Shown: piece by piece, positions 1-11,938 of the stretch | How positions within the stretch are numbered: position 1 is the first letter of the stretch | How the letters are laid out: each line of letters opens with the position of its first letter | NCBI GenBank assembly: GCA_017629455.1 | Contig: JAGBXE010000122.1 | Location: 1-11,938, forward strand | DNA: 11,938 bases | From: Kiritimatiellia bacterium | GTDB taxonomy: Bacteria > Verrucomicrobiota > Kiritimatiellia > RFP12 > UBA1067 | Reading direction: 5' to 3' | Position numbers and translations under genes: made by a program | The notes under the pieces: generated by a model | Database searches by the model: none | Told to the model about the DNA's origin: nothing | What the model saw: only the letters and a program-made list of their open reading frames with translations

Positions 1-171
1 GATTAAAGCTCCAATTATAATAGGCGAGATAATGTTGCCAAAGTTTTCAGCCCATTTGGGCGGTTGGCGGCTTTTGCCTGAGAAAAAGATGAACGGCAGA
101 GCGCGAAGCGTGAAGTTGACCGCAAAGCCAGCTGCCACAATAGAAAGCATGTATATGATTTCGCGCGTCAA
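1..171 (-). CDS. azlD: AzlD family branched-chain amino acid transport subunit (3' part cut off by window edge)
   Basis: The first 57 residues of a small hydrophobic membrane protein are visible; the frame stays open to base 1. The pattern fits AzlD/YgaH: a membrane segment at about residues 5-20, the 'NFTLRALPFIFF' stretch, a short polar loop ending near 'KWAENFG', then a second hydrophobic segment ('IISPIIIGALI'). AzlD is known as the small partner of AzlC in an inner-membrane exporter of branched-chain amino acids. The start chosen is TTG at 171-169. It overlaps the azlC stop (TTGA) and lies 5 nt after a perfect AGGAGG. The ATG at 150-148 is too far from that ribosome binding site. The overlap implies translational coupling with azlC. 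Family assignment rests on the azlC neighbour as well as on the sequence. Confidence 0.85.
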   Translation of the reverse strand, partial: MTREIIYMLSIVAAGFAVNFTLRALPFIFFSGKSRQPPKWAENFGNIISPIIIGALI

Positions 172-818
172 GTTGACCTCCTTGAAAATATTGCGCGAAG
201 TTGGTCGGTAAGGATGACGATAAAGAGCGCCGCCATCGAAAACTCCATCCCGTTTGTCCACGCGCGAATTTTTTCGGGTGAAACTACATGGCCGAGAATC
301 TTTACGGCAAGAGTTCCCGCCGTCACGCCCACAATCCAATACGAGTGGTTTAGAGAGGAAAGAAATGTGCAGTAATTAAGATTCTCTTTCTTATCTCTTA
401 TTTTGCATGAGGCTTCAAGCGCATAGTTTTCGTCTGTCAGCATCAAAATAAGGTAGGCCTTTCTAAGGAACGGAACATCCTTCCATCTGCTGAGCATTGA
501 AAAGCCGTAAAATACGTAGCGGAAGTTTACGGCAAGCGTCATCACGGCAAATTGCAGTGCCGTAGTACGCGCGGCGATTTCAGGAACGCCGGCAATCGAC
601 ATTGTGCCAGTAACCCAAAGCGCGGCAGAAAGAAACCCCCAAATAGGTGAAAGGATAACATCGCCTTTTGCCGCAAGGAGTACGCCGGCTACAAACCCCA
701 TTGTGGTGTAGCCCATGAGCACGGGAAGCGAATCAACGAAAGCCCGCCGCGCAATCGCGCGAGTGCGCGAGCGCGTGATACGCCCGGTTTTCTCCCGCGT
801 CGATCTCGCTTCTTCCAT
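168..818 (-). CDS. azlC: AzlC family branched-chain amino acid exporter, large subunit
   Basis: This 216-residue integral membrane protein matches AzlC/YgaZ in length and landmarks. It has a basic N-terminus (residues 1-25, many Arg/Lys), 'FVDSLPVLMGYTTMGFVAG' at 27-45, the family motif 'NFRYVFYG' at 98-105 (compare the (N/D)xRHxLYG pattern), 'LTDENYAL' at 127-134, and a C-terminal 'GMEFSMAALFIVIL' segment at 190-203. Family members with AzlD export branched-chain amino acids or related compounds such as azaleucine; the substrate here is not shown by the sequence. The ATG at 818 has no SD upstream but follows a TATAAT box by only 8 nt, so the message may be leaderless. The 3' end overlaps azlD by 4 nt. 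It is divergent from the dehydrogenase gene, sharing a 150-bp intergenic region. Confidence 0.9.
   Translation of the reverse strand: MEEARSTREKTGRITRSRTRAIARRAFVDSLPVLMGYTTMGFVAGVLLAAKGDVILSPIWGFLSAALWVTGTMSIAGVPEIAARTTALQFAVMTLAVNFRYVFYGFSMLSRWKDVPFLRKAYLILMLTDENYALEASCKIRDKKENLNYCTFLSSLNHSYWIVGVTAGTLAVKILGHVVSPEKIRAWTNGMEFSMAALFIVILTDQLRAIFSRRST
177..182 (-). promoter_or_regulatory. Strong Shine-Dalgarno for azlD, inside the azlC 3' end
   Basis: The minus strand reads AGGAGG here (AAGGAGGTCAA over 183-173), fully complementary to the 16S rRNA anti-SD. It ends 5 nt before the TTG at 171. It decides the azlD start in favour of TTG over the downstream ATG, and it shows that SD-dependent initiation exists in this organism. 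Confidence 0.8.
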
Positions 819-826
819 TTCGCGCT

Positions 827-832
827 ATTATA
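827..832 (-). promoter_or_regulatory. Consensus -10 box (TATAAT) directly upstream of azlC
   Basis: The minus strand reads a perfect TATAAT ending 8 nt before the azlC ATG (818). Transcription normally begins 6-8 nt after a -10 box, so the predicted start is at or within a base or two of the ATG. No convincing TTGACA-like -35 lies 16-18 nt further upstream. Confidence 0.5.
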
Positions 833-902
833 CCAAACTTTCCTTCCCCTCTTATTCTCCAAACATCCTTCCCAACCTCAATTCACATCCTCCGCAATGC
901 AA

Positions 903-934
903 TTGCAGTTTGATAAATGAAAATATGTTATAAT
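903..934 (+). promoter_or_regulatory. Likely promoter of the zinc dehydrogenase gene
   Basis: A perfect TATAAT lies at 929-934 in an A/T-rich stretch, about 35 nt upstream of the ATG at 969. The best -35 candidate is TTGCAG at 903-908, but its 20-nt spacer is longer than the usual 16-18. The same stretch also contains TTTG (909-912) and TACATTTG (934-941) separated by 21 nt, which resembles the TTTG / TAnnTTTG pattern of Bacteroidetes promoters. The -10 box is the well-supported part. Confidence 0.5.
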
Positions 935-952
935 ACATTTGGTTTGGAAATC

Positions 953-960
953 AGAAAGGA
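953..960 (+). promoter_or_regulatory. Ribosome binding site that sets the dehydrogenase start
   Basis: AGAAAGGA ends 8 nt before the ATG at 969, normal SD spacing. It selects this ATG over the in-frame TTG at 939, which would add ten residues and would overlap the putative promoter. Confidence 0.7.
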
Positions 961-968
961 AAATATAC

Positions 969-2069
969 ATGGCCATTCCGAAAAAGTGCAAAGTGTCGGT
1001 TCTTGAAGAGCCGCGCAAGATGGTGTTGAAGGAAGTTGCAATCCCCGAGATCGGCCCGGATGAAATTCTCGTGAAGGTCGAAGGTTGTGGCGTTTGCGGC
1101 ACGGACGTGCATGAATACAAGGGTGATCCCTTCAAGTATTGCCCCGTTCAGCTCGGCCATGAAGGAACGGGCGAGATCGTTGCGCTCGGCAAGAACATCA
1201 AGACCGATTTCACAGGCAAGCCCCTTAAGGTTGGCGACAAGATCGTCACTGGTCTTAAGCCCTGCGGCACTTGCAACACTTGCAAGTTCACCCCTGAAAT
1301 CGCCGAGCTTTGCAATGGCGGCGAAATTTACGGTCTTATGCCTGGCCCTAAGAACTACCTCAACGGTTGGTTCGGCGAGTACATGAAGGTCAACAAGGGC
1401 GGCGTTGTGTTTAACGTCTCCGATATGGATCGCGATCTGCGCATCCTTATCGAGCCTGCTGCCGTTATCGTTCACGCTGTCGAACAGGCAAAGCAGATCT
1501 TCAACTTCCAGTTCAACAGCTACGTCCTCGTTCAGGGTTGCGGTCCGATTGGCCTTCTTCTCCTGGCGATGGTTCGCTGCATGGGCGTTAGAAACATCAT
1601 CGCGTGCGATGGCGATGCCAAGCGTTTGGCGTTTGCCAAGAAGCTCGGTGCTAAGTACACCGTCAACGGTCTTAAGCCTGGCGCGGTCGAGAAGGTTATG
1701 GAAATCACCGGCGGCGAAGGTGCCGAGATGGTCTTCCAGTGCACAGGCTCGCCCAAGGCTGCATCCGCTGCTTGGAAGTATGTCCGCCGCGGCGGTTCGT
1801 TCTGCGAACTCGGATTCTTCACGAATAACGGCGATACGACTTACAGCCCCCACCTTGACATGTGCAACAAGCAGGTCAAGGCTTGCGGTTCGTGGACGTA
1901 TCAGGCCAAGGACTGGGTCCAGAGCTTCGACTTCCTCAAGGAAGCTAAGGCTCGCAAGCTTCCGATCACCAAGCTCATCACTCACAAGTATCCGCTCGAG
2001 AAGATGAACGAGGCGATGGAGATGAATATCTCCATGAAGGGGCTTAAGATTGCGTTCGTAGCCAAGTAA
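969..2069 (+). CDS. Zinc-dependent medium-chain alcohol/polyol dehydrogenase (MDR family)
   Basis: This 366-residue protein has the full MDR layout. The GroES-like catalytic domain carries zinc ligands C43 (in 'CGVCGTD'), H64 and E65 (in 'GHEGTG'). A structural zinc lobe holds C99, C102, C105 and C115, and a conserved Glu-Pro lies at 162-163. The Rossmann fold has GCGPIG at 190-195 and an acidic residue (D214) at the end of the second strand, which favours NAD over NADP. Members oxidise alcohols, polyols or L-threonine; the substrate cannot be read from the sequence. The last structural cysteine is spaced Cx9C rather than the usual Cx7C. Lysine is coded almost only by AAG (about 37 of 39, the two AAA being codons 5 and 8), unlike the neighbouring genes, which suggests a highly expressed enzyme. 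It has its own promoter, SD and terminator, so it is probably monocistronic. Confidence 0.92.
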   Translation: MAIPKKCKVSVLEEPRKMVLKEVAIPEIGPDEILVKVEGCGVCGTDVHEYKGDPFKYCPVQLGHEGTGEIVALGKNIKTDFTGKPLKVGDKIVTGLKPCGTCNTCKFTPEIAELCNGGEIYGLMPGPKNYLNGWFGEYMKVNKGGVVFNVSDMDRDLRILIEPAAVIVHAVEQAKQIFNFQFNSYVLVQGCGPIGLLLLAMVRCMGVRNIIACDGDAKRLAFAKKLGAKYTVNGLKPGAVEKVMEITGGEGAEMVFQCTGSPKAASAAWKYVRRGGSFCELGFFTNNGDTTYSPHLDMCNKQVKACGSWTYQAKDWVQSFDFLKEAKARKLPITKLITHKYPLEKMNEAMEMNISMKGLKIAFVAK

Positions 2070-2091
2070 CTTAAATGAGTTCTTAAGAAAT

Positions 2092-2134
2092 CGCCTCCTC
2101 CGCAGATTAAAAACGCGGCGGGGGCGTTTCTTTT
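2092..2134 (+). terminator. Strong intrinsic terminator after the dehydrogenase gene
   Basis: A G/C-rich hairpin pairs 2092-2103 with 2115-2126: 12 positions with one T-C mismatch and one G-T wobble, around an A-rich 11-nt loop. The T-rich tract TTTCTTTT follows at 2127-2134. It begins 22 nt after the stop codon and should separate the dehydrogenase transcript from the aro fusion gene. Confidence 0.88.
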
Positions 2135-2166
2135 GGAAGATGTATCTATATTGATGGTTTGTTTCG

Positions 2167-4521
2167 ATGAAAATGTTTGGCCAGTTTCTTCGTGTCGCTG
2201 TTGAAGGAGCGTCTCATTCTCGTGCAATTTCGTTTAAGCTTGAAAATTTTCCATCAGGCTTTGTGCCGGATTTTAAAGCTCTTTCGTCGTTTATGGCTCG
2301 CCGCGCTCCTGGGCAAGGGCCGTTTACAACTGCGCGCTGGGAGAGCGATGCCGTTACGTTTTTATCGGGTTTCGGTCAGGATGGCGCTAGCGACGGTTCT
2401 CCTATTTTAGGCGAAATTCAAAATAGAGATATGCGCCCTCGAGATTATGGTGTCGATCGTACCGTGCCGCGCCCCGGGCACGCCGATTTTGGCCAATGGG
2501 TTGAGACTGGCACGATTCCTACTGGCGGCGGTAAAAATTCTGGGCGGCTTACTGCGCCATTGTGCGCCGTTGGCGCGCTTTGCCTGCAGATGCTTAAGCG
2601 CCGCGGCATAAGCATTTCGGCGCACATTGATTCAATCGCTGGTAAGGCTTCGCTTTTTAACGAGTTAATTTCCGCGGCAAAGCGCGATGGAGATTCTGTT
2701 GGCGGAACAATTGTCTGCGAAGTTAAGGGCCTGCGTCCAGGTTTGGGCGGCGCACTTTTTGACGGCCTTGAATCTCATCTTTCCGCTGCAATTTTTGCGA
2801 TCCCTGGCGTTAAGGGTATTGAGTTTGGCGAAGGTTTTCGCTCATCATCGCTTCGTGGGTCGGAAAACAATGATCCGTTCGTTGCACTTGGAGAAGGGCG
2901 CATAGAGACGCGCGGCAATAAGCATGGCGGAATCCTTGGCGGGCGTACAAGCGGTATGCCGGTGGTTTTCAGAGTTGCTCTTAAGCCTACGCCGACAATC
3001 TTTAAGCCGCTTGATAGCGTCGATTTGAAAACGATGACGTCCGCGCGTTCGTGTGCAAAGGGGCGTCACGATCCATGTATCGTTTTAAGGGCTGTGCCTG
3101 TTGTGGAGGCGCTTGCCGCGTTTGTGGTTTTAGATATGCTCTTAGCCGAAGAGGCTCTTCGCCCGAGAATATGCCTTACGCTTACAGGAAGCACCTTAAA
3201 GGAGTGTGCAAAGCAGTTTGAGGCTGAGAGGTACTTTGTCGAGATGGTCGAGCTTCGTGCCGATCTTCTTTCAAAGCGAGAGCGCGCCAAAGTTTGCGAG
3301 TTTCCAAGTATGGTCGATGTGCCTGCGCTTCTAACATATAGGCGCGCAAGTGATGGCGGCGCGTTTGAAGGCGACGATGGTGAGCGCAAACTTTTCTTCA
3401 GGAATGTTTTGGAATCGCAAGTCGAATGTTTAGATGAGAAGGGCTTTGAGTTCGTCGATTTCGAAGAGGGCTTTGCCGAGAGCGGATTAATTGAGCTTGC
3501 GCATAAGGCGGGAGCTAAAGTTGTTTGCTCGATTCATGATTTCAATGGCCCAGTACGCAATCTTACCGCTCGCTTGAAAGCGCTTTCACGAAATGCGGAC
3601 ATAGCAAAAGTCGCTTTTATGCCGCACTCACTCGACGACGTAACGCGAGTATTTGCGCAGTTAGGGCCTGCATCAAAGGCGAGGGGTTTAAAGTATGTCG
3701 TAGTGGCGATGGGGCATATAGGTTTTTCTACGCGTGTTCTTGCCCGCCGTTTAGGTTCGCTTTGGACGTATACTTCTGTAAAAGGTCTCTCAAGCCTTGG
3801 CCATGTTACGCCGCACGAGCTGGTTAAAACCTACAGGTTCAGGCAGCTTGATGACGAGACGGAAATTTATGGAGTTACTGGCTGGCCGCTAGAAGTTACA
3901 CGCAGCCCCGAAATTAACAACGCCGCGTTTTCGGTCGACGACAAGAATGCTGTCATGGTGCCAATGCCCAGTAAGACGCCGCGTTCTGCCGTTCGATTTA
4001 TGAGTACCCTGGGCCTTAAGGCTATGGCAGTAACTATTCCGCATAAGTTTGGAATAATGCCGCACTTAAAGCGCATTGATAAGATGGCAAGTAAAGTCGG
4101 CGCTGTAAATACCGTCGTTAGAGAAAAGTCGGGATTGGTCGGATATAATACCGACGTTGCCGGGATTACAGAAGCGCTTGAAGCTTTTGCAGGCAATCTT
4201 CGCCTTAGACGCGTAGCTGTTCTTGGTGACGGAGGCGCAGCACAGGCTGTTAAGTTTGCTCTCTCTCAGATGGGGGCAAAGTATGAAGTATTTCATCGCA
4301 CAATGCCAGAAGAGGGGTTTGACCTAATAATAAACTGTACGCCCGTTAATCCGATTGTGGGGTACAAGTTTACTGGTCGCGAGTTAGTGTATGACTTACG
4401 GTATAATCCAGAGACGACGCCTTTGATGGCCGAGGCTCTTAAAGCGGGCTGCCGCGTTCAAAATGGTTTTTCAATGCTCGTTCATCAGGCTGCCGAGCAG
4501 AGGAAGATTTACTGTAAATAA
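2167..4521 (+). CDS. aroCDE: Trifunctional chorismate synthase / 3-dehydroquinate dehydratase (type I) / shikimate dehydrogenase fusion
   Basis: One uninterrupted 784-residue frame holds three shikimate-pathway enzymes. AroC (about 1-330) makes chorismate from EPSP; it has H17 and H105 ('RPGHAD'), 'SGRLTAPL' (125-132), 'GGILGG' (254-259) and 'GRHDPC' (299-304). AroD type I (about 331-555) dehydrates 3-dehydroquinate; it has 'ELRAD' (362-366), H457 in 'SIHDF' and Schiff-base K481 in 'IAKVAFMP'. AroE (about 562-784) reduces 3-dehydroshikimate; it has 'TRSP' (578-581), catalytic K627 in 'TIPHK', 'GAVNTV' (645-650), D663 in 'GYNTD' and the NADP-binding GDGGAA (687-692). Linkers are only a few residues. 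Oddities are 'GASHS' for the usual GESHG in AroC, Asp396 where AroD usually has Glu, and a shortened AroE nucleotide-binding domain. The start is ATG 2167 or ATG 2173; neither has an SD. Shikimate kinase, EPSP synthase and dehydroquinate synthase are not in the window. Confidence 0.93.
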   Translation: MKMFGQFLRVAVEGASHSRAISFKLENFPSGFVPDFKALSSFMARRAPGQGPFTTARWESDAVTFLSGFGQDGASDGSPILGEIQNRDMRPRDYGVDRTVPRPGHADFGQWVETGTIPTGGGKNSGRLTAPLCAVGALCLQMLKRRGISISAHIDSIAGKASLFNELISAAKRDGDSVGGTIVCEVKGLRPGLGGALFDGLESHLSAAIFAIPGVKGIEFGEGFRSSSLRGSENNDPFVALGEGRIETRGNKHGGILGGRTSGMPVVFRVALKPTPTIFKPLDSVDLKTMTSARSCAKGRHDPCIVLRAVPVVEALAAFVVLDMLLAEEALRPRICLTLTGSTLKECAKQFEAERYFVEMVELRADLLSKRERAKVCEFPSMVDVPALLTYRRASDGGAFEGDDGERKLFFRNVLESQVECLDEKGFEFVDFEEGFAESGLIELAHKAGAKVVCSIHDFNGPVRNLTARLKALSRNADIAKVAFMPHSLDDVTRVFAQLGPASKARGLKYVVVAMGHIGFSTRVLARRLGSLWTYTSVKGLSSLGHVTPHELVKTYRFRQLDDETEIYGVTGWPLEVTRSPEINNAAFSVDDKNAVMVPMPSKTPRSAVRFMSTLGLKAMAVTIPHKFGIMPHLKRIDKMASKVGAVNTVVREKSGLVGYNTDVAGITEALEAFAGNLRLRRVAVLGDGGAAQAVKFALSQMGAKYEVFHRTMPEEGFDLIINCTPVNPIVGYKFTGRELVYDLRYNPETTPLMAEALKAGCRVQNGFSMLVHQAAEQRKIYCK

Positions 4522-4547
4522 TGAAAGGGGCGCAACTAAAGCGCTAA
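4521..4547 (+). other. Possible 8-codon coupling ORF between aroCDE and the permease
   Basis: An ATG overlaps the aroCDE stop by one base (TAATG) and opens an 8-codon frame (MKGAQLKR) ending in TAA at 4547, 6 nt before the permease ATG. The permease has no SD near its start, so terminating ribosomes could pass through this mini-ORF and reinitiate. It is too short for any protein-level evidence and may be chance. Confidence 0.25.
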
Positions 4548-4553
4548 AAAGAT

Positions 4554-5831
4554 ATGGAAGCAGTATTTTCAACTTGGGGAGCGCTTATTGGCTTAGTCCT
4601 TTCAATAGTGCTTATCGTACGTAAAGTTTCTCCTGCATATGCTTTAATCCTTGGTGCGTTAGTCGGCGGTGTTGTCGGTGGGGGCGGCCTTGTTAAAACT
4701 GTGAGCGCAATGATTTCAGGTACGCAGGCGATGATGCCGAGCGTATTGAGAATATTATCTTCCGGTGTCTTGGTTGGGGCGCTCGTAAAGACTGGAAGTG
4801 CAGCAAAAATTGCTGATGCAATAATTCGTGTTCTAGGCGCGAAATTTGCTTTGGCTGCTGTCGCGCTAGCTACGCTCGTTGTAACATCTGTCGGTGTGTT
4901 TATTGATATCGCCGTAATTACCGTAGCTCCCGTTGCTCTTGCCGTTGGTAGAAGGGCTGGAATCGGCGCGCCTGCGCTTCTTTTGGCGATGATTGGCGGC
5001 GGCAAGGCCGGTAATATTATTTCGCCTAATCCAAATACGATTGCCGTTGCCGAAGCCTTTAAGCTTGATCTTACGGCCACCATGATGGCAAATATCATTC
5101 CTGCTGTAGTGGCATTCTTTGTGGCTGTCGTTATTTCAACTTGGCTTTCTAAGCGTTGGAAAACGTGTGACACATCTGTCGATGTCGTTTCCGAAGCTGA
5201 CATAAGTGATAATGGGCCTTCGATCTTGCAGGCAATCCTTGGCCCCATGGCAGTTATTGCACTTCTTGCTATGCGCCCCATCTTTGGTATTCTTGTCGAT
5301 CCCTTAATCGCGCTTCCTGTTGGCGGCATCGTTTCTATTCTTGCCTGCGGCAAATGGCGATACACGGTTAAGTACAGCGAGTTTGGCTTATCTAAAGTAG
5401 TTGGAGTTTCAATTCTTCTTATCGGCACAGGCACAGTTGCGGGCATCGTTAAGGGTTCAGCTCTTAATGCCGATATGATTGCGCTTCTTAACGCTTGCCA
5501 TATGCCGCCATGGGCGTTGGCGCCTTTCTCAAGTATTTTGCTAGCCGGTGCTACCGCATCTACAACGGCGGGCGTTACAATAGCTGCTCAAACGTTTTCA
5601 GGTACGCTTGCAGAAGCGGGCGTGCCTGCTGTTTCGGCGGCTGCCATGTTGCACGCAGGCGGTACAATTTTCGACGCGCTACCCCATGGTAGTTTCTTCC
5701 ACGCAACTGCAGGAGCTGTTGGTATGGGAGTTAAAGACAGGCTTAAGATGTTTCCTTACGGCGAAATTGTAGGCGCAGCTTCTACGCTTACGGCCGTAAT
5801 AGTTTACCTTGTTCGTTCGCAAGTAGGCTAA
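4554..5831 (+). CDS. GntP family permease (gluconate/organic-acid:H+ symporter family)
   Basis: This 425-residue polytopic membrane protein has about 11-12 hydrophobic segments. Family-type landmarks are 'GGGKAGNIISPNPNT' (148-162), a polar loop at about 200-222, 'ATASTTAGVTIA' (333-344) and 'LPHGSFFHATAG' (376-387) with the following 'KDRLKMFPYGEIVG'. GntP relatives import sugar acids such as gluconate, or other small hydroxy acids and D-serine; the substrate here is unknown. The ATG at 4554 starts just before the first membrane segment and lacks an SD. The gene follows aroCDE by 32 bp on the same strand with no terminator between them, so the two are probably co-transcribed. That link alone does not show transport of a shikimate-pathway compound. 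The gene converges with mfd, with 2 bp between the stop codons. Confidence 0.88.
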   Translation: MEAVFSTWGALIGLVLSIVLIVRKVSPAYALILGALVGGVVGGGGLVKTVSAMISGTQAMMPSVLRILSSGVLVGALVKTGSAAKIADAIIRVLGAKFALAAVALATLVVTSVGVFIDIAVITVAPVALAVGRRAGIGAPALLLAMIGGGKAGNIISPNPNTIAVAEAFKLDLTATMMANIIPAVVAFFVAVVISTWLSKRWKTCDTSVDVVSEADISDNGPSILQAILGPMAVIALLAMRPIFGILVDPLIALPVGGIVSILACGKWRYTVKYSEFGLSKVVGVSILLIGTGTVAGIVKGSALNADMIALLNACHMPPWALAPFSSILLAGATASTTAGVTIAAQTFSGTLAEAGVPAVSAAAMLHAGGTIFDALPHGSFFHATAGAVGMGVKDRLKMFPYGEIVGAASTLTAVIVYLVRSQVG

Positions 5832-5837
5832 GCTTAG
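5828..5837. repeat. 10-bp palindrome spanning both convergent stop codons
   Basis: CTAAGCTTAG is a perfect palindrome. Its left half holds the permease TAA (5829-5831) and its right half the mfd stop (TTA on plus, 5834-5836). There is no T-tract or longer stem, so it is not a recognisable terminator, and none is visible elsewhere between the two genes. Confidence 0.6.
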
Positions 5838-8800
5838 GGAGTATCGCTTTCTTTTAATGCGTCGGCGGCAGATCCGATTTCGGCTATCTTGCGCCGCGCA
5901 TTGGAACCCTTAAGGTCTATTACTTTCGCAATTACATTTGAAGAATTGCGATAGAATACCGCTCTAGAGCCCTTTGCATCAACGCGCGAAACTTGTGCCA
6001 TCGCGCAGCGAACGCGTAAAGCGGCAATCCTGACAAATTCATCAGCAGCGCTCGGCAGCGGCCCGAATCTATCTTTCATTTCATCGGCGAGTGCCTTAAC
6101 CGTATGCAAATCTTGCGCTTCTGCAAAGCGCTTTAGAAGCGTCATCCTTAAGACGTCTTCTTCAATGTACTCTACGGGTATTCGTGGGTGTGCGAAATCG
6201 AGGTTCAGGTGCACATCGATTACGTCTTTTACGCGCTCGCCCTTTAAACGGGCGATTGTACGTTTTAATAATTGGCAGTAAAGATTAAAGCCAACGGCTG
6301 CGATATGGCCTGACTGTTGAGAGCCTAGGAGATTGCCGGCTCCGCGCAGTTCTAGGTCGCGGACGGCTAGATTAAAGCCAGAGCCCAGCCCTTGGTGGCG
6401 CTTAAGCGCGGCGAGGCGCTCTCTTGCTTCAGAGTCAATATCGCCGGAAGCTGGCAGTAAGAAGTATGCCATACCTTGGACAGACGATCTCCCCACGCGC
6501 CCGCGCAACTGGTAAAGATCGGACATTCCGAACGTTTCGGCGCGGTCGATTAAAATTGTGTTTGCACGAGGTATGTCGATGCCGCTTTCAATGATAGTCG
6601 TTGAAAGAAGGATATCAAACTCGCCACGTTCAAACGCGCGCATTTTTTTAGCTAGCGTCATCGCGTCCATTTGGCCGTGCGCAACTACGATACGCGCTTT
6701 CGGGCAAAGTGCGGCGAGTCTTTTCCTAGCCTTGTCTATCGACATTACTCTATTGTGGAGAAAATATACTTGCCCGCCACGAGCGATTTCGCGCTCAATT
6801 GCAGAGGTGATAGTTTCGTCGTTATCAAGTACGATGTGCGTTTCTACCGCTACGCGCTCACGCGGCGGTGAGCGCAGAAGCGATAAATCGCGTGCGCCTG
6901 TCATTGAGAGGTAGAGCGTGCGCGGAATAGGCGTTGCTGAAAGGGTAAGAACGTCGGCAGTTTCTCTAAGGCGCTTTAGAAATTCCTTTTGCCGCACGCC
7001 GAAACGCTGCTCTTCGTCTATTATAATTAGCCCAAGGTCGCGGAAGCGAATCTTTGAAGAGAGGATTGCGTGCGTGCCGATGACGATATCGCATACGCCA
7101 GTTTCAAGTCTGTTGAATGTGCCTTCGTGCGTACCTTTCGTCTGAAAGCGCGATACCGACTCGATGCGCACAGGCGTACCGTCAAAGCGAGCTGTGAAGG
7201 TTTCAAAATGCTGTTCAGCCAAAACTGTTGTCGGCGCAAGAACTGCCACTTGGCGGCCATTCATGACAGCAATGTAAGCCGCCCTCATCGCAACTTCTGT
7301 TTTACCGTACCCAGCATCTCCGCACACTAGGCGATCCATCGGTTTCTCGGAAGCAAGGTCTGCATCAATTGCTTCGATCGCTGAAAGCTGGTCGGGAGTT
7401 TCTTCATATGGGAATGCCGCATCAAATGCTTCGCGCCCATCGCAGTTGATGTCGTACTTAAAGCCTGGGGCCGTTTCTCGTTTAGCCTGCGTTTCGAGAA
7501 GGGCGGCAGCCAAATCGCAAACGGCTTTTTGCGCGTCTTTCCTGTCTTTATCCCACCGCTTGCCGTCGAGCCTATGTAGAGGTGCGCTTTCGCCTTTTAC
7601 GCCTACGTATCTAGACAAGAGATGCGCGTGAGAGCAGGGAACGTGGAGCTTGCCGCCATCGGCGTATTCAATCGTATAGACTTCGTTTCGGTGGCCATCA
7701 ACCAAGATTTCGGAAGAGCCTATGTATCTACCTACGCCATAGTCGAGGTGGACAACGAGTTCGCCTGGTTCAAGGTCGTCGAAGTCAGAAATGCGTTGGC
7801 CGTGGATGCCACTTCCAGAACGCCTTGAATGTGCCTTGCGTTTCGTAAATACTCTATCGGCCTTCGTCACTACTATGAACTTGCCGTCCAGTTCGAAGCC
7901 GCCGCTAAGAGCGTCTAAAGAAAGTATTTCCAAGCCGCGTGATCTGGCGCTTGAAATGTGTTTGTCAAGGCGCCTGCGGGCAGATTCGAAAAGTTCGGGA
8001 TGGTGTGCTTCGCCGGCACCTAATTCAGCGAAACCTGGTAGCGGAGATGTATGAAAACTGTAGACGCTTACGCCCTGTGGGGGCGGCTCGCCAATGTAGA
8101 CGGTAAATGGCGCCTTCTCACGCGAGGCAGCCTTTGGGAGCGAGTATTCGCAATGTTTAATCGCCAAGATTGCCGCGTTTTCAGGGAGAATGTCGATAAG
8201 GTGTGAAGCGTTTTCTCCTTCGTCGCCATTTACTTCAACGGGCAAAAATTCAGCTCTTAAGATTCGTTTTACCGAGATCTGTGTTGCAGGATCAAATGCC
8301 CGTATTGATTCAAGTTCGTCGCCGAAGAATTCAATTCGAACGGGAAACTCTTCGCCGGGGCACCAAGCGTCGATAATACCGCCGCGAACGGAAAAGTCGC
8401 CTTCCTGCTCGACTTGCGCAAGGCGGGAGTAGCCGATTTTGGCAAGGCGCTCGCTAAGCTCCGAAAAGCTCGGTTGCGGGCTTGATGCATTTTCATCTAA
8501 AACCGATACCGTTACCGACGGCATCGACTCAGACGGCAACGGCGCAGAAAGAGCAGAAGAAGGCGCTACAACAACTGCCGCGTACGGCAGATACGCCCAT
8601 GATTTCAGCGCCGATGCAGTTTTTAGCCTGAGCGCGAGGGCTGATTTTTCTCCGTCAAGAAGCGGTGGAAATTCGAGGATTCTCGTTTCTTTCGCCGAAT
8701 CGATATTTTGTGTTAAAGTCTTTAGGTCGTCGAGCAGCTGTTCCGCATCGGGAATACCGGCGGTAACAGCGAGAACTATCCTATTTGCTCCGTTTGTGTT

Positions 8801-8920
8801 TGAGGCTAGCGAGAGCGCGGCAAAAGCGTTGGCGCAGCCCGACTGCTGAGGGATGCATACAGAACAAGTTTCCAGCGGAGGCTGGAAACTTTCTGAGAAA
8901 AGCTTTAGCGCATCGAACAT
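5834..8920 (-). CDS. mfd: Transcription-repair coupling factor Mfd
   Basis: This 1028-residue protein displaces RNA polymerase stalled at DNA lesions and recruits UvrA. Its order is a UvrB-like N-terminal region (about 1-250, including the 'GDFSVRGGIIDAW' UvrB-interaction segment at 174-186) and the RNA-polymerase interacting domain (about 380-440, 'HLDYGVGRYIG' at 391-401). The RecG-like translocase has Walker A GDAGYGKT at 534-541, DEEQ at 635-638, SAT at 661-663, 'TTIIESGIDIP' at 774-784 and motif VI QLRGRVGRS at 804-812. A C-terminal TRCF domain covers about 900-1000. It is some 120 residues shorter than E. coli Mfd (1148), mainly in the N-terminal half, but the motor motifs are complete. 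The ATG at 8920 has only a weak GAAGA-like SD. It lies 17 bp after the beta-CASP nuclease gene, so the two are likely co-transcribed. Confidence 0.97.
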   Translation of the reverse strand: MFDALKLFSESFQPPLETCSVCIPQQSGCANAFAALSLASNTNGANRIVLAVTAGIPDAEQLLDDLKTLTQNIDSAKETRILEFPPLLDGEKSALALRLKTASALKSWAYLPYAAVVVAPSSALSAPLPSESMPSVTVSVLDENASSPQPSFSELSERLAKIGYSRLAQVEQEGDFSVRGGIIDAWCPGEEFPVRIEFFGDELESIRAFDPATQISVKRILRAEFLPVEVNGDEGENASHLIDILPENAAILAIKHCEYSLPKAASREKAPFTVYIGEPPPQGVSVYSFHTSPLPGFAELGAGEAHHPELFESARRRLDKHISSARSRGLEILSLDALSGGFELDGKFIVVTKADRVFTKRKAHSRRSGSGIHGQRISDFDDLEPGELVVHLDYGVGRYIGSSEILVDGHRNEVYTIEYADGGKLHVPCSHAHLLSRYVGVKGESAPLHRLDGKRWDKDRKDAQKAVCDLAAALLETQAKRETAPGFKYDINCDGREAFDAAFPYEETPDQLSAIEAIDADLASEKPMDRLVCGDAGYGKTEVAMRAAYIAVMNGRQVAVLAPTTVLAEQHFETFTARFDGTPVRIESVSRFQTKGTHEGTFNRLETGVCDIVIGTHAILSSKIRFRDLGLIIIDEEQRFGVRQKEFLKRLRETADVLTLSATPIPRTLYLSMTGARDLSLLRSPPRERVAVETHIVLDNDETITSAIEREIARGGQVYFLHNRVMSIDKARKRLAALCPKARIVVAHGQMDAMTLAKKMRAFERGEFDILLSTTIIESGIDIPRANTILIDRAETFGMSDLYQLRGRVGRSSVQGMAYFLLPASGDIDSEARERLAALKRHQGLGSGFNLAVRDLELRGAGNLLGSQQSGHIAAVGFNLYCQLLKRTIARLKGERVKDVIDVHLNLDFAHPRIPVEYIEEDVLRMTLLKRFAEAQDLHTVKALADEMKDRFGPLPSAADEFVRIAALRVRCAMAQVSRVDAKGSRAVFYRNSSNVIAKVIDLKGSNARRKIAEIGSAADALKESDTP
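8866..8891 (-). repeat. Perfect 11-bp inverted repeat with 4-nt loop inside the 5' end of mfd
   Basis: Arms 8866-8876 and 8881-8891 are exactly complementary around the loop 8877-8880. In the mfd mRNA this forms a hairpin from about nucleotide 30 to 55 after the A of the ATG (codons 10-19), with loop CUCC preceded by C. No U-tract follows, so it is not a standard terminator. Confidence 0.75.
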
Positions 8921-8937
8921 GCGTTCTTCGAAGTTTG

Positions 8938-10338
8938 TCAGTCGATTTCAAACGACTGCCCGGGCGCTGGCGCAAACGAGTTTTTAATGCCCATGTCTTT
9001 AAGAATGTCGACCATCGCCGAAACCTTGTCGATTTCGCCGTGTACGGCAAAAGCGTAGCGCACATTGTCTTTAACTTCGCTAATCCAGTTGGAAAGCCCC
9101 GCACGGTCGGCGTGAGCGGAGAGGGCGTTTATCACTTCAACTTGCGCTTTAAGTGGAACTTCTTCGCCAAAGACCTTGATTGTTTCTCTTCTCTCGACAA
9201 TGCGCCTACCGAGAGTGTTTTCTGCCTGGTAGCCGCATATAAGAATTATATTATTGGGATCTTGGACGCAATGCTTGAGATGGTGTACAACACGCCCGCC
9301 TTCGCACATTCCTGACGCGGCAATGATAATCATTGGGCCGGGAGTATCGTTAAGCGCCATCGACTCTTCCGGTGAGCCTACAAAGACCATGCCTGGGTAT
9401 TCTAGAGGGTTAATTCCGCGTGCGATTACAGCTTTTGCCTCATCGTTGTAGACTTCGCCGTGGGAAGCGTAAATACGAGTAGCTTTTTGAGAGAGAGGCG
9501 AGTCGATGTAGAGTTTTACTTCACGCGGAACTTTGCCGCGTTCGTACAACTTGTTGAGATAGTAGATGATTTGTTGAGTTCTGCCGACGGAGAATGCGGG
9601 GATGAGAAGTTTTGCGTTGAGCCTGTCGATTTTCTTTAGGAGTTGCTCCAGCTTAAGTTCAACATCGTCGGCTGAGGGGTGGTAGCGTTCGGCGTATGTC
9701 GATTCTACAAGTAGAATATCCGCACCCGAAGGATATTCAAAGTGGCGCAAAATGGGCTGATTTGGCTGGCCGAGATCGCCGGTAAAGAGAAGCCTGTGTG
9801 CTTTGCCTTTTGGCGGTTTTATGTCGAGTTGTACGAGAGCAGAACCTAGAATGTGGCCGGCGTTGAAAAATTCAAGTGTTATCCCGGGGGCTATTTCTCG
9901 CGGTTCGTGCATATGCGTGGGAACAAAAAGGTGCATCAAAGTGTCGACATCCTGCTCGTCGTAAAGAGGTTCGAAAAGATTTTTCCCGGCTCTCTTGCGC
10001 TTCTTGTTGACGTATTCAAGGTCGCGCTTTTGAAGAAAACAAGAATCGCGCAGAAGTACATTGCACAACTCCACTGTTGACTGCCGCGCAAAAACTCTGC
10101 CGCGGAAACCCTGCCTTACGAGCTGGGGTAGGTTTCCTGAATGGTCGATATGCGCGTGCGAGAGAATTACATAGTCGATTTTCGCGGGATTAACAGGAAT
10201 ATTCCTGTTTTTCTCAAACGCTTCTTTGCGGCGCCCTTGGTAAAGCCCGCAGTCTAGTAAAATGCGCTTGCCGTTAGCTTCGACGAGATGCATTGATCCA
10301 GTCGTAGTCTGCGCTGCTCCATAGAAAGTTATTTTCAT
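8938..10338 (-). CDS. Metallo-beta-lactamase fold, beta-CASP family ribonuclease (CPSF73/Ysh1-like)
   Basis: This 466-residue cytosolic protein has no signal peptide and shows all metallo-beta-lactamase and beta-CASP motifs. They are D29 (LLDCG), HAHIDH at 61-66 (motif 2), H162 in 'GHILGS' (motif 3), D188 in 'FTGDLG' (motif 4), E212 in 'VESTY' (beta-CASP motif A), H409 in 'SAHAD' (motif B) and H433 in 'VHGE' (motif C). The beta-CASP insert lies roughly at 210-400, with 'PAFSVGRTQ' at 247-255 and 'ASGMCEGGR' at 341-349. This set is typical of the CPSF73-like branch of RNA endo/exonucleases rather than RNase J, which is longer. The RNA target is unknown. The gene starts 45 bp after the surface-protein gene and ends 17 bp before mfd, all on one strand. 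No SD precedes the ATG at 10338. Confidence 0.93.
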   Translation of the reverse strand: MKITFYGAAQTTTGSMHLVEANGKRILLDCGLYQGRRKEAFEKNRNIPVNPAKIDYVILSHAHIDHSGNLPQLVRQGFRGRVFARQSTVELCNVLLRDSCFLQKRDLEYVNKKRKRAGKNLFEPLYDEQDVDTLMHLFVPTHMHEPREIAPGITLEFFNAGHILGSALVQLDIKPPKGKAHRLLFTGDLGQPNQPILRHFEYPSGADILLVESTYAERYHPSADDVELKLEQLLKKIDRLNAKLLIPAFSVGRTQQIIYYLNKLYERGKVPREVKLYIDSPLSQKATRIYASHGEVYNDEAKAVIARGINPLEYPGMVFVGSPEESMALNDTPGPMIIIAASGMCEGGRVVHHLKHCVQDPNNIILICGYQAENTLGRRIVERRETIKVFGEEVPLKAQVEVINALSAHADRAGLSNWISEVKDNVRYAFAVHGEIDKVSAMVDILKDMGIKNSFAPAPGQSFEID

Positions 10339-10383
10339 ATGCTTTATAAAACCTAATAATGCGTGATTAAACTCCGGTGGATT

Positions 10384-11938
10384 TTACCGTATTGTAATTA
10401 TCGCACCGGCAGTTATGATTTCATTAAGGTAGATTGTTCCGTTTTTAAGTTCGAATACGCCGGCAATATTCTTCTGGCCCGTTCCTTTAAGCCTAAACTT
10501 GGAAACGTCAATAGTGGTGCTGCCGGAGATTTTCGCAACGGCTATTGGCTTTGGCAATGGCATGCGCGGCAGGGGATTTTCGAGTGTGCGCCCAGCGTTT
10601 ACCGTGATTAAACCAGACAATGCGCAATCTTCGAAATTGACGGCTCCTTCGCCTGCATTAAGCGTATCGTCAAACTCGACAGGAAGCTTAGCCTTATAAA
10701 TCGTAGCGCCTTTAATTGTGCCAGCACCCTTGAAGCCGTTACCCTCAAGCGTTTGGTTGCAGTTTGAGAAATCGACTGTGCTAGCCTCGTTTATCGCTTC
10801 AACCGTTCCCTTGAAAAGGGCGGTACCGTCGGCAAATGCAATAGTTCCAAGCCCCGCATTGACTACGCCGCCTTCGCCGGTGAATGGAGCTTCAGTAGTA
10901 AATGTGCAACCTTCTGCTGGGCTTAAGATCGCGCCTCTGCCGCGCATTTCGTAAATAACATGGCCGTTTTGCGATGCGGGATACGTTTTGTCGCCATTGT
11001 TAGCGTCGTACACCCATTTGCCGTTGTCGAAGGCGATTGTAAAATCGCGGTTTTGAGCGGGCTCGTTAATTCCTGAGAACATAAATGTCGAGCCGCCCCT
11101 TACAAGTATTTCGCCGTAAAGGCGGTTGTCGTTGCCTTTGTTGAATGATACGGGCTTGCCGTCTTCGGTTGAAAATGTAGAGCCGTTATCAAGGTCTAAT
11201 TCAAGAGAGCCGTCGAGATTGGCTTTTTCTGTAGTGTACATCTGCGAAGCGTTGAGGTGGTAGCGAACTATTGCTCTTGTGCCAGTGCCCGCGTAACCGC
11301 GCGAAAGGTAGCCGCCGCCGCTAGAGGAAAATGAGTATGTTCCATTTGTTATCGCGTATACGATCGAGCTGTTGGCGTCGGTGCAAGAATAACCGGGCAT
11401 TGTGGCTTTTACTGCAAGCCTTGCGCCATTAATTATTTTAATGACTGAGTGTTGGTTCTTAAGTTTAGAGCTGTTCTGCCAGCCGTTATACACGTAGTTA
11501 GCTTCTGTGCAATCGAAGAATACGTTATCTAAGGTAAGTGTTTGTCCGCCGGTTCCTGACGAAGTTGGTAAGCCCACCATCGTAACGCCTAAAACTCGTG
11601 CTCTTGAGTTGCCGTGGCCGGCGAAGCGCAGTTCGCCTTCGGCAACTCCGAGTGTAGTGTGGATGTCGGAAGGTTCGGATCCGTCTTCCGGGAATGTGGC
11701 ATTGTGGTTCGTGGAGTTTACGTCGGGGGAGGAAGCCTGTGGGCCGGTGTGAACAGGGCATACCATGTACGTCGTGTCGGCCGGGATGTCGATTGTCAGC
11801 GTTCCCGTGCCGCGTTTTACCCAGCGGCCTTTAGTCGCATTGAAGTTTGAAATCGTGGTGTCGCAATCAGCTTTGAGGACAATTGTGGAGTTGGTGTCAA
11901 CGGCAGTTAGTGTTATATTAGCGGGAATATTGAGAGGC
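10384..11938 (-). CDS. C-terminal part of a large autotransporter-repeat (PATR-like) surface protein, 5' end beyond window
   Basis: The frame is open from the window edge to TAA at 10384, giving 517 residues of a longer protein; the ATG at 11766 is internal. The visible part is low in charge, rich in Gly, Thr, Asn, Ser and Ala, and built of short beta-strand units such as 'GGSTFMFSG' and 'VNAGLGTIAFADG'. It carries one clear passenger-associated repeat ('RWVKRGTGTLTID' at about residues 38-50 of the fragment). This is the style of right-handed beta-helix secreted proteins. The C-terminus ends '...AGAIITIR' with no visible autotransporter beta-barrel, LPXTG, PEP-CTERM or other anchor. Cysteines are few. 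The ligand or function cannot be inferred. No terminator separates it from the downstream nuclease gene. Confidence 0.75.
   Translation of the reverse strand, partial: PLNIPANITLTAVDTNSTIVLKADCDTTISNFNATKGRWVKRGTGTLTIDIPADTTYMVCPVHTGPQASSPDVNSTNHNATFPEDGSEPSDIHTTLGVAEGELRFAGHGNSRARVLGVTMVGLPTSSGTGGQTLTLDNVFFDCTEANYVYNGWQNSSKLKNQHSVIKIINGARLAVKATMPGYSCTDANSSIVYAITNGTYSFSSSGGGYLSRGYAGTGTRAIVRYHLNASQMYTTEKANLDGSLELDLDNGSTFSTEDGKPVSFNKGNDNRLYGEILVRGGSTFMFSGINEPAQNRDFTIAFDNGKWVYDANNGDKTYPASQNGHVIYEMRGRGAILSPAEGCTFTTEAPFTGEGGVVNAGLGTIAFADGTALFKGTVEAINEASTVDFSNCNQTLEGNGFKGAGTIKGATIYKAKLPVEFDDTLNAGEGAVNFEDCALSGLITVNAGRTLENPLPRMPLPKPIAVAKISGSTTIDVSKFRLKGTGQKNIAGVFELKNGTIYLNEIITAGAIITIR

Follow-up and report, generated by a model that had tools for sequence, protein, structure and literature searches.

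Why should chorismate synthase, the enzyme of step 7 of the aromatic amino acid route, share a polypeptide with the enzymes of steps 3 and 4? The question is raised by an 11,938-nucleotide stretch of DNA (the window; contig JAGBXE010000122.1 of a Kiritimatiellia bacterium, positions 1 to 11,938 of the forward strand), in which a single gene joins AroC (chorismate synthase, step 7), AroD (3-dehydroquinate dehydratase, step 3) and AroE (shikimate dehydrogenase, step 4). The fungal AROM protein covers steps 2-6, without step 7. Judged from its sequence and those of its relatives, the window gene very probably encodes a trifunctional enzyme that supplies the cell with its sole chorismate synthase as well as with dehydroquinase and shikimate dehydrogenase, the three activities being predicted ones. 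The unusual combination appears to have been assembled from neighbours in a gene row.

Architecture of the fusion protein

The gene occupies a single open frame on the forward strand (2167-4521), with 784 codons, an ATG start and a stop at 4519-4521. Its parts are the following (window coordinates; residues of the encoded protein):

2167..4521, + strand: aroCDE fusion gene; 784 codons plus stop, one open frame, homologues full-length
2188..3144, + strand: AroC (chorismate synthase) domain, residues 8-326; from PF01264, solved-structure alignment and conservation
3145..3171, + strand: AroC-AroD joint, about 9 residues (327-335); from Pfam borders, solved-chain matches and a model
3172..3834, + strand: AroD (type I 3-dehydroquinate dehydratase) domain, residues 336-556; from PF01487, alignments and conservation
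3835..3873, + strand: AroD-AroE joint, residues 557-569; from gap-free alignment to the Arabidopsis dehydroquinase-shikimate dehydrogenase (DHQ-SDH)
3874..4518, + strand: AroE (shikimate dehydrogenase) domain, residues 570-784; from PF08501, alignments, conservation and a model

Pfam recognizes each enzyme over a complete profile: Chorismate_synt (PF01264) at residues 8-326 (profile 1-327 of 327; 305.3 bits versus a cut-off of 27), DHquinase_I (PF01487) at 336-556 (1-230 of 230; 116.7 bits) and Shikimate_dh_N (PF08501) at 570-650 (1-83 of 83; 47.6 bits), the latter two above their curated cut-offs. Pfam gives no separate match for the C-terminal part of AroE. Against NCBIfam, the protein passes the aroC model TIGR00033 (286.6 versus 212.2) and stays below the cut-offs of NF003793 (AroC part, 289.2 versus 321), of aroD (104.6 versus 139.3) and of the aroE model TIGR00507 (153.8 versus 200.2), the last score marking a divergent AroE. 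Among 7994 scored candidates, 621 proteins, the window protein counted, are full-length homologues at E<=1e-3. The 120 of them that were listed span 94-100% of the query, and the same three domains are present in all 119 others, confirming the unbroken three-domain frame that a first-pass annotation of the window had reported.

That annotation had also held that each domain keeps its catalytic landmarks, and this is borne out by the alignments, in which the landmarks are retained in 115-120 of the 120 rows (exceptions are a gap at S16/H17 in five rows and His for R127 in one). AroC of the window keeps S16, H17, H105, R127, R300, H301 and D302, among which we take the active-site Ser-His, the second His and the Asp near the C-terminus to be represented; S16 and H17 are present in all 115 ungapped rows, and H105 and D302 in all 120. 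AroD keeps H457, K481 and R523, with the Schiff-base Lys K481 and the catalytic His H457, aligned to 4ph6 and 3js3, in 120 of 120 rows. AroE keeps K627, N648, D663, the dinucleotide motif at 687-692, Y746 and Q774, its substrate part being residues 570-650; the catalytic K627 and D663 are likewise found in all 120 rows.

A model of the protein matches 6bmb over residues 330-784. D precedes E on one chain over a continuous, gapless joint, and the order, fold and mutual placing of the two domains are all common to the window protein and the plant bifunctional DHQ-SDH. DHQ-SDH, however, has no AroC, whereas the window protein carries AroC fused in front and has D and E parts below the NCBIfam cut-offs. 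By alignment and model, the AroDE half is a plant-type DHQ-SDH, with AroC as the new part. Besides plants, AroDE is known from archaea, Planctomycetes and Acidobacteria, according to PMC11237513.

Fusion joins adjacent genes of a row

We counted 18 distinct AroC-AroD-AroE loci (L001-L008, L130-L136, L152, L182 and the window). Not counted were the duplicates L143 and L155 and the broken loci L012, L015 and L158; the AroC-AroD label of L012 stems from a contig end and that of L158 from a frame break, and neither is a genuine AroC-AroD gene. Neighbours were identified with AroK, AroB, AroA, TyrA and chorismate mutase domain models iterated from seeds of L013 and L019, part of the matches being checked by Pfam. 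The relatives possess a second fusion, AroK-AroB (AroKB) in one frame, usually with AroA adjoining. In 11 of the 18 loci (L004, L005, L007, L008, L130, L133-L136, L152 and L182) AroKB starts 4-47 bases behind AroE, and among these 11 AroA lies behind in eight and TyrA in front in eight. Neither AroA nor TyrA was found in L134 despite a long enough stretch, while the stretches of L005, L135 and L152 are short on one side or the other. In 10 of the 18, a gap of about 23-60 bases separates the end of TyrA from the AroC behind it. AroKB does not adjoin the fusion in the other seven, including L001 and the window; the neighbours in the window are other genes, so the row is broken up there. The least fused row seen, L013, reads DAHP (3-deoxy-D-arabino-heptulosonate 7-phosphate) synthase, a chorismate-mutase protein, TyrA, AroC-AroD, AroE, AroK-AroB and AroA. 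The fusion partners are therefore gene-row neighbours, and the odd 7-3-4 combination needs no channelling story. The first-pass annotation had stressed that the joined steps are non-consecutive; step 7 does stand apart, but steps 3 and 4 follow one another.

We propose that an ancestral row tyrA-aroC-aroD-aroE-aroK-aroB-aroA underlies these arrangements. AroC, as a row neighbour, would have been joined to the N-terminus of a protein with a plant-type DHQ-SDH joint, and AroK and AroB would have fused too, leaving steps 2-7 on three polypeptides: AroCDE, AroKB and AroA. In the window the row would then have been broken up and the fusion retained. By analogy with DHQ-SDH, D probably passes dehydroshikimate to E; C would act separately on 5-enolpyruvylshikimate-3-phosphate (EPSP) made by other proteins, probably as a homotetramer bearing DE as outer parts. 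Rather than channelling through step 7, the likely gain would be that neighbours are made in equal dosage and inherited together. We infer the wholly unfused form of the row, the order of the fusion events, the oligomer and the benefit.

The relatives also divide the pathway in other ways. One alternative partition consists of AroC-AroB followed by AroK-AroA or AroK-AroA-AroE, together with a type II dehydroquinase. AroK-AroA-AroE (steps 5, 6 and 4; about 700-717 residues) occurs in L114, L116, L120, L121, L128, L175 and L179, and an AroC-AroB gene was also fetched from six of these seven genomes; in the seventh (G296) AroC is absent among the matches listed. TyrA-AroC-AroD-AroE was found in all eight proteins checked by domain models (three also by Pfam) and in L195. 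In Bacillota, L019 and L076 are tetrafunctional AroC-chorismate mutase-AroE-AroK proteins with many further matches, and AroC-chorismate mutase-prephenate dehydratase, AroA-AroC-chorismate mutase, AroC-AroK and AroC-chorismate mutase-AroK are represented by one protein each. Where AroC-AroD stands without a fused E, an ordinary AroE lies directly behind it in L010, L011, L013 and L180 and elsewhere in genome G009; none was seen within the fetched stretches of L137 and L181. A 1329-residue frame in L007 was considered as a larger fusion and rejected: its first 530 residues have no Pfam match, and tyrA there lies in another frame. We take the extra length as open frame ahead of the true start.

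Chorismate synthase is a homotetramer, and the first-pass annotation had suggested that the fusion builds a scaffold for the missing kinase and EPSP synthase. In its full form, an AroC tetramer would hold four AroDE arms and recruit AroKB and AroA, as AROM plus step 7, and intermediates would be passed along. The tetramer itself, the fact that AroC has repeatedly fused with partners from the pathway and the placing of steps 2-7 on three neighbouring polypeptides in the relatives all agree with such a design. The partners of AroC, however, vary between groups (AroB, chorismate mutase, shikimate kinase, TyrA), the window fusion is adjoined by other genes, and the apparent hub role of AroC is partly a search bias, the queries being AroC-bearing; AroKB and AroK-AroA-AroE do without it. 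We consider a selected scaffold unlikely, and the suggestion finds no support here, since fusion within a gene row explains the non-consecutive steps and relatives fuse AroC otherwise. It is doubtful, too, that AroCDE, AroKB and AroA of the clade form one physical complex, founded on an AroC tetramer, that carries out all of steps 2-7. If true, this would be a second, independent AROM-like solution, with the split into AroC-AroB and AroK-AroA-AroE as a third, and the order would amount to a set of natural experiments in cutting one pathway into polypeptides.

The fused domains are probably all active

Does each domain of the trifunctional enzyme still work? Apart from fragments, AroC occurs once per genome in G001-G016. 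The sole AroE match is the one inside the fusion in all eight genomes G001-G008, as is the sole type I AroD match in seven of them, G006 being the exception. No type II dehydroquinase was found in any of the 25 genomes with an AroD-bearing fusion, whereas one is present in all 12 genomes with AroC-AroB or AroK-AroA-AroE proteins, in both genomes with a stand-alone AroC of this kin (G191 and G228) and in three of the four remaining ones (17 of 43 in total). Since the fusion holds the only AroE and AroC of these relatives and type II dehydroquinase is excluded from them, the fused parts should be active. The AroC-AroD genome G009 has one additional type I dehydroquinase. Matches to shikimate kinase, dehydroquinate synthase and the EPSP synthase family, which also includes MurA, were found in 20 of 20 genomes searched. 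DAHP synthase exceeds the TIGR01361 cut-off in 13 of 16 genomes, and G012 has a partial match; G007 and G008 have only weak matches below that cut-off, though steps 2-7 are present. The weak matches are perhaps 3-deoxy-D-manno-octulosonate 8-phosphate synthase, and another type of DAHP synthase may serve. In six pairs of relatives (the window is too distant from its nearest locus to be paired) the ratio of nonsynonymous to synonymous substitution (dN/dS) is 0.08-0.39 per domain.

Several observations weigh against this reading. No other of the 120 rows deviates as much as the window copy, which differs at 29 of 310 near-invariant columns (the runner-up at 15 of 303; median 0) and has its landmarks intact, and constraint on it may be relaxed; one close group predominates in the set, so that rows outside that group deviate more. 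In AroC, active-site letters are changed from GESHG to GASHS and from GGGRSSAR to GGGKNSGR; the changes are partly common to other fused and some unfused relatives, which does not in itself establish that they are harmless. In AroD, by alignment mapping, Asp396 replaces the usual Glu and His546 the usual Gln in all 120 rows; we take these to be the active-site positions Glu 86 and Gln 236 (numbering also from PDB titles), helpful rather than strictly defining. In G006 the AroD of the 749-residue fusion (L006) lacks about 72 residues (profile 54-125), and the genome has two stand-alone type I dehydroquinases (G006:C186 and C165); decay of the AroD domain after takeover by these enzymes is possible. 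Lastly, copy number and the other pathway steps are carried over to the window from genomes of relatives that are incomplete to an unknown degree, which makes single absences weak, but not the pattern over 37 genomes.

These points could be read to mean that one window domain, most likely AroD or AroE, is inactive and kept as structure while its step is done elsewhere. The fast-changing window copy would fit, and the gap in G006 together with the stand-alone AroE of AroC-AroD genomes suggests that domains can be lost. The window copy, however, retains every landmark, a spare AroE occurs in none of the eight close relatives and a type II dehydroquinase in none of the 25 genomes, and dN/dS of the pairs is well below 1; we regard an inactive domain as highly improbable.

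Still less credible is that one chain is made and later cut into separate enzymes. Cutting would be compatible with the sequence, but the D-E joint is that of DHQ-SDH, which was solved as one chain, and the C-D joint of about 9 residues leaves scant space for a processing site. At the latter, the C-terminal tail found in solved chorismate synthases is missing (matches to 11 solved chains stop 10-44 residues before the chain ends), and a helix (306-331) is predicted to be followed by a strand (334-339). Residues 300-350 contain four possible internal start codons, residues 540-575 none; a simple pattern found no Shine-Dalgarno-like motif at the internal starts, which says little because the gene's own ATG is equally without an obvious one. 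Merging of neighbouring genes by sequencing or assembly error, conceivable for a metagenome and given the frame break inside the fusion of the related record L158, is refuted by the presence of the three domains in each of the 119 further homologues listed, which come from several sources, and by the C-D-E order in 17 further distinct loci.

Columns 201-300 of alignment A1 (L002/L003) show close homologues carrying a mixture of two versions of the AroC mid-region, and the synonymous divergence of one pair differs strongly across domains (0.18, 0.07 and 0.54). Recombination inside the fusion gene or chimeric assembly may account for both.

Origin and distribution

Trees were quick ones, without bootstrap. 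They omit same-genome duplicate loci (L143, identical to L004, stayed in two early trees), rows with less than 60% coverage of the domain profile, most stand-alone Clostridia rows (the first AroC tree uses 57 of 111 AroC rows), and near-copies or cut rows (L158, L012 and L134 from a later AroC tree, also of 57 rows; L158, L134 and L127 from the AroE tree). In that later AroC tree, a branch separates AroC-AroD-AroE, AroC-AroD and TyrA-AroC-AroD-AroE from the other rows (35 of the 57; Shimodaira-Hasegawa-like approximate likelihood ratio test, SH-aLRT, 96); the earliest AroC tree left four L007-type fusions unplaced. In the AroE tree, AroC-AroD-AroE, AroD-AroE, AroK-AroA-AroE and TyrA-AroC-AroD-AroE form a group of 41 rows (95), apart from the stand-alone AroE used, so that AroK-AroA-AroE has its AroE in common with the fused stock. 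A single origin of the fusion is likely, not proven, on these trees: the wider AroC tree puts AroC-AroB inside the fusions (SH-aLRT 86), and the AroC-AroD-AroE forms are not one clade in the best AroE tree, although one clade is not rejected (approximately unbiased test, p-AU 0.265). For AroC-AroD, loss and replacement of the E part would be the simpler reading, because these rows sit among AroC-AroD-AroE rows in the AroC trees, on weak branches. The changed AroC motifs were considered as a mark of fusion and rejected, as GGGxNSGR also occurs in the stand-alone L111/L112 and in AroC-AroB relatives, and GGGHFSGR in several Clostridia; the GASH form is almost restricted to fused rows.

Records of the fusion are labelled Kiritimatiellae, Verrucomicrobia, Lentisphaerae or uncultured bacterium, many being named for rumen, yak or sheep samples (L001-L008); the genome-collection search was limited to the 80 best out of 574 or more places. 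Within the order of L001's genome (144 sampled genomes), the whole fusion stands in one frame in 15, and four others have it cut at contig ends (G012 and G015), with its frame broken (G322) or with the AroD gap (G006). AroC-AroD without AroE was found in seven (in G014 in two pieces), AroC-AroB in 15 (AroB confirmed by domain model in all 15), and AroD-AroE in three, all confirmed by domain model, with AroC separate in G274 and G303 and no AroC match seen in G237. Five of the 144 gave no match at all; the others have other or weaker matches. A sample of the class (288 genomes) shows the same groups among the matches listed, and in the class of L066, a Lentisphaeria record, two of 118 sampled genomes have AroC-AroD-AroE, one of them behind a fused TyrA. 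The match lists of these three samples stop at the weak end, which leaves the numbers of strong matches sound. The fusion is thus spread through one order and is also found outside it, and so is no isolated oddity. No relative was found in the viral contigs searched.

Relation to known fusions

An AroC fusion of any form was not found described in the open-access literature searched (most subscription papers lie outside it), nor in the available parts of PMC9885046, PMC3018139, PMC11237513 and PMC5897657, so that the annotation's statement that it knew of no described AroDE with AroC at its N-terminus stands within that literature. Public protein sets already contain proteins of the same or a related architecture, under automatic names: P0227 (Victivallales) and P0235 (Kiritimatiellae) are called 'chorismate synthase', P0117 '3-dehydroquinate dehydratase/shikimate dehydrogenase', and the AroC-AroE-AroK protein P0190 'chorismate synthase/shikimate 5-dehydrogen...'. 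Such one-domain naming conceals multi-enzyme proteins. AROM, with domains aroB, aroD, aroE, aroL and aroA (PMC3018139), resembles the window protein in carrying several shikimate steps on one chain with D before E. The window protein, however, has only C, D and E instead of steps 2-6, and the relatives, unlike AROM, have C-D-E on one chain, K-B on another and A alone. AroE-AroK fusions, reported from Methanomicrobiales (PMC11237513) and seen here also in Clostridia, Spirochaetia and others, likewise join neighbours of the same pathway, with partners other than those in the window protein.

AROM, DHQ-SDH and the chorismate mutase fusions serve as textbook examples when the reasons for enzyme fusion are discussed. 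The shikimate fusions in the literature searched omit chorismate synthase, and the fusions of these relatives, with the same enzymes in different combinations, are a bacterial counterpart of the pentafunctional fungal protein. Within one order the pathway is divided in at least two ways that differ in their partners, and part-way forms (C-D plus a separate E; D-E without C) are present as well; tetrafunctional forms occur nearby. Whether channelling, assembly or dosage is the benefit of fusion becomes testable by comparison of these sister designs.

Two further frames lie on the reverse strand of the window:

10384..11937, - strand: surface-protein-like frame of at least 517 residues, continuing past the window edge
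8938..10338, - strand: beta-CASP metallo-beta-lactamase protein

For the former, neither Pfam nor NCBIfam matches the 460-residue part that starts at its first ATG. The latter matches the NCBIfam model cas14_MBL_CASP (type VII CRISPR) at 389.7 bits versus a cut-off of 800, and its product is probably an ordinary beta-CASP ribonuclease.
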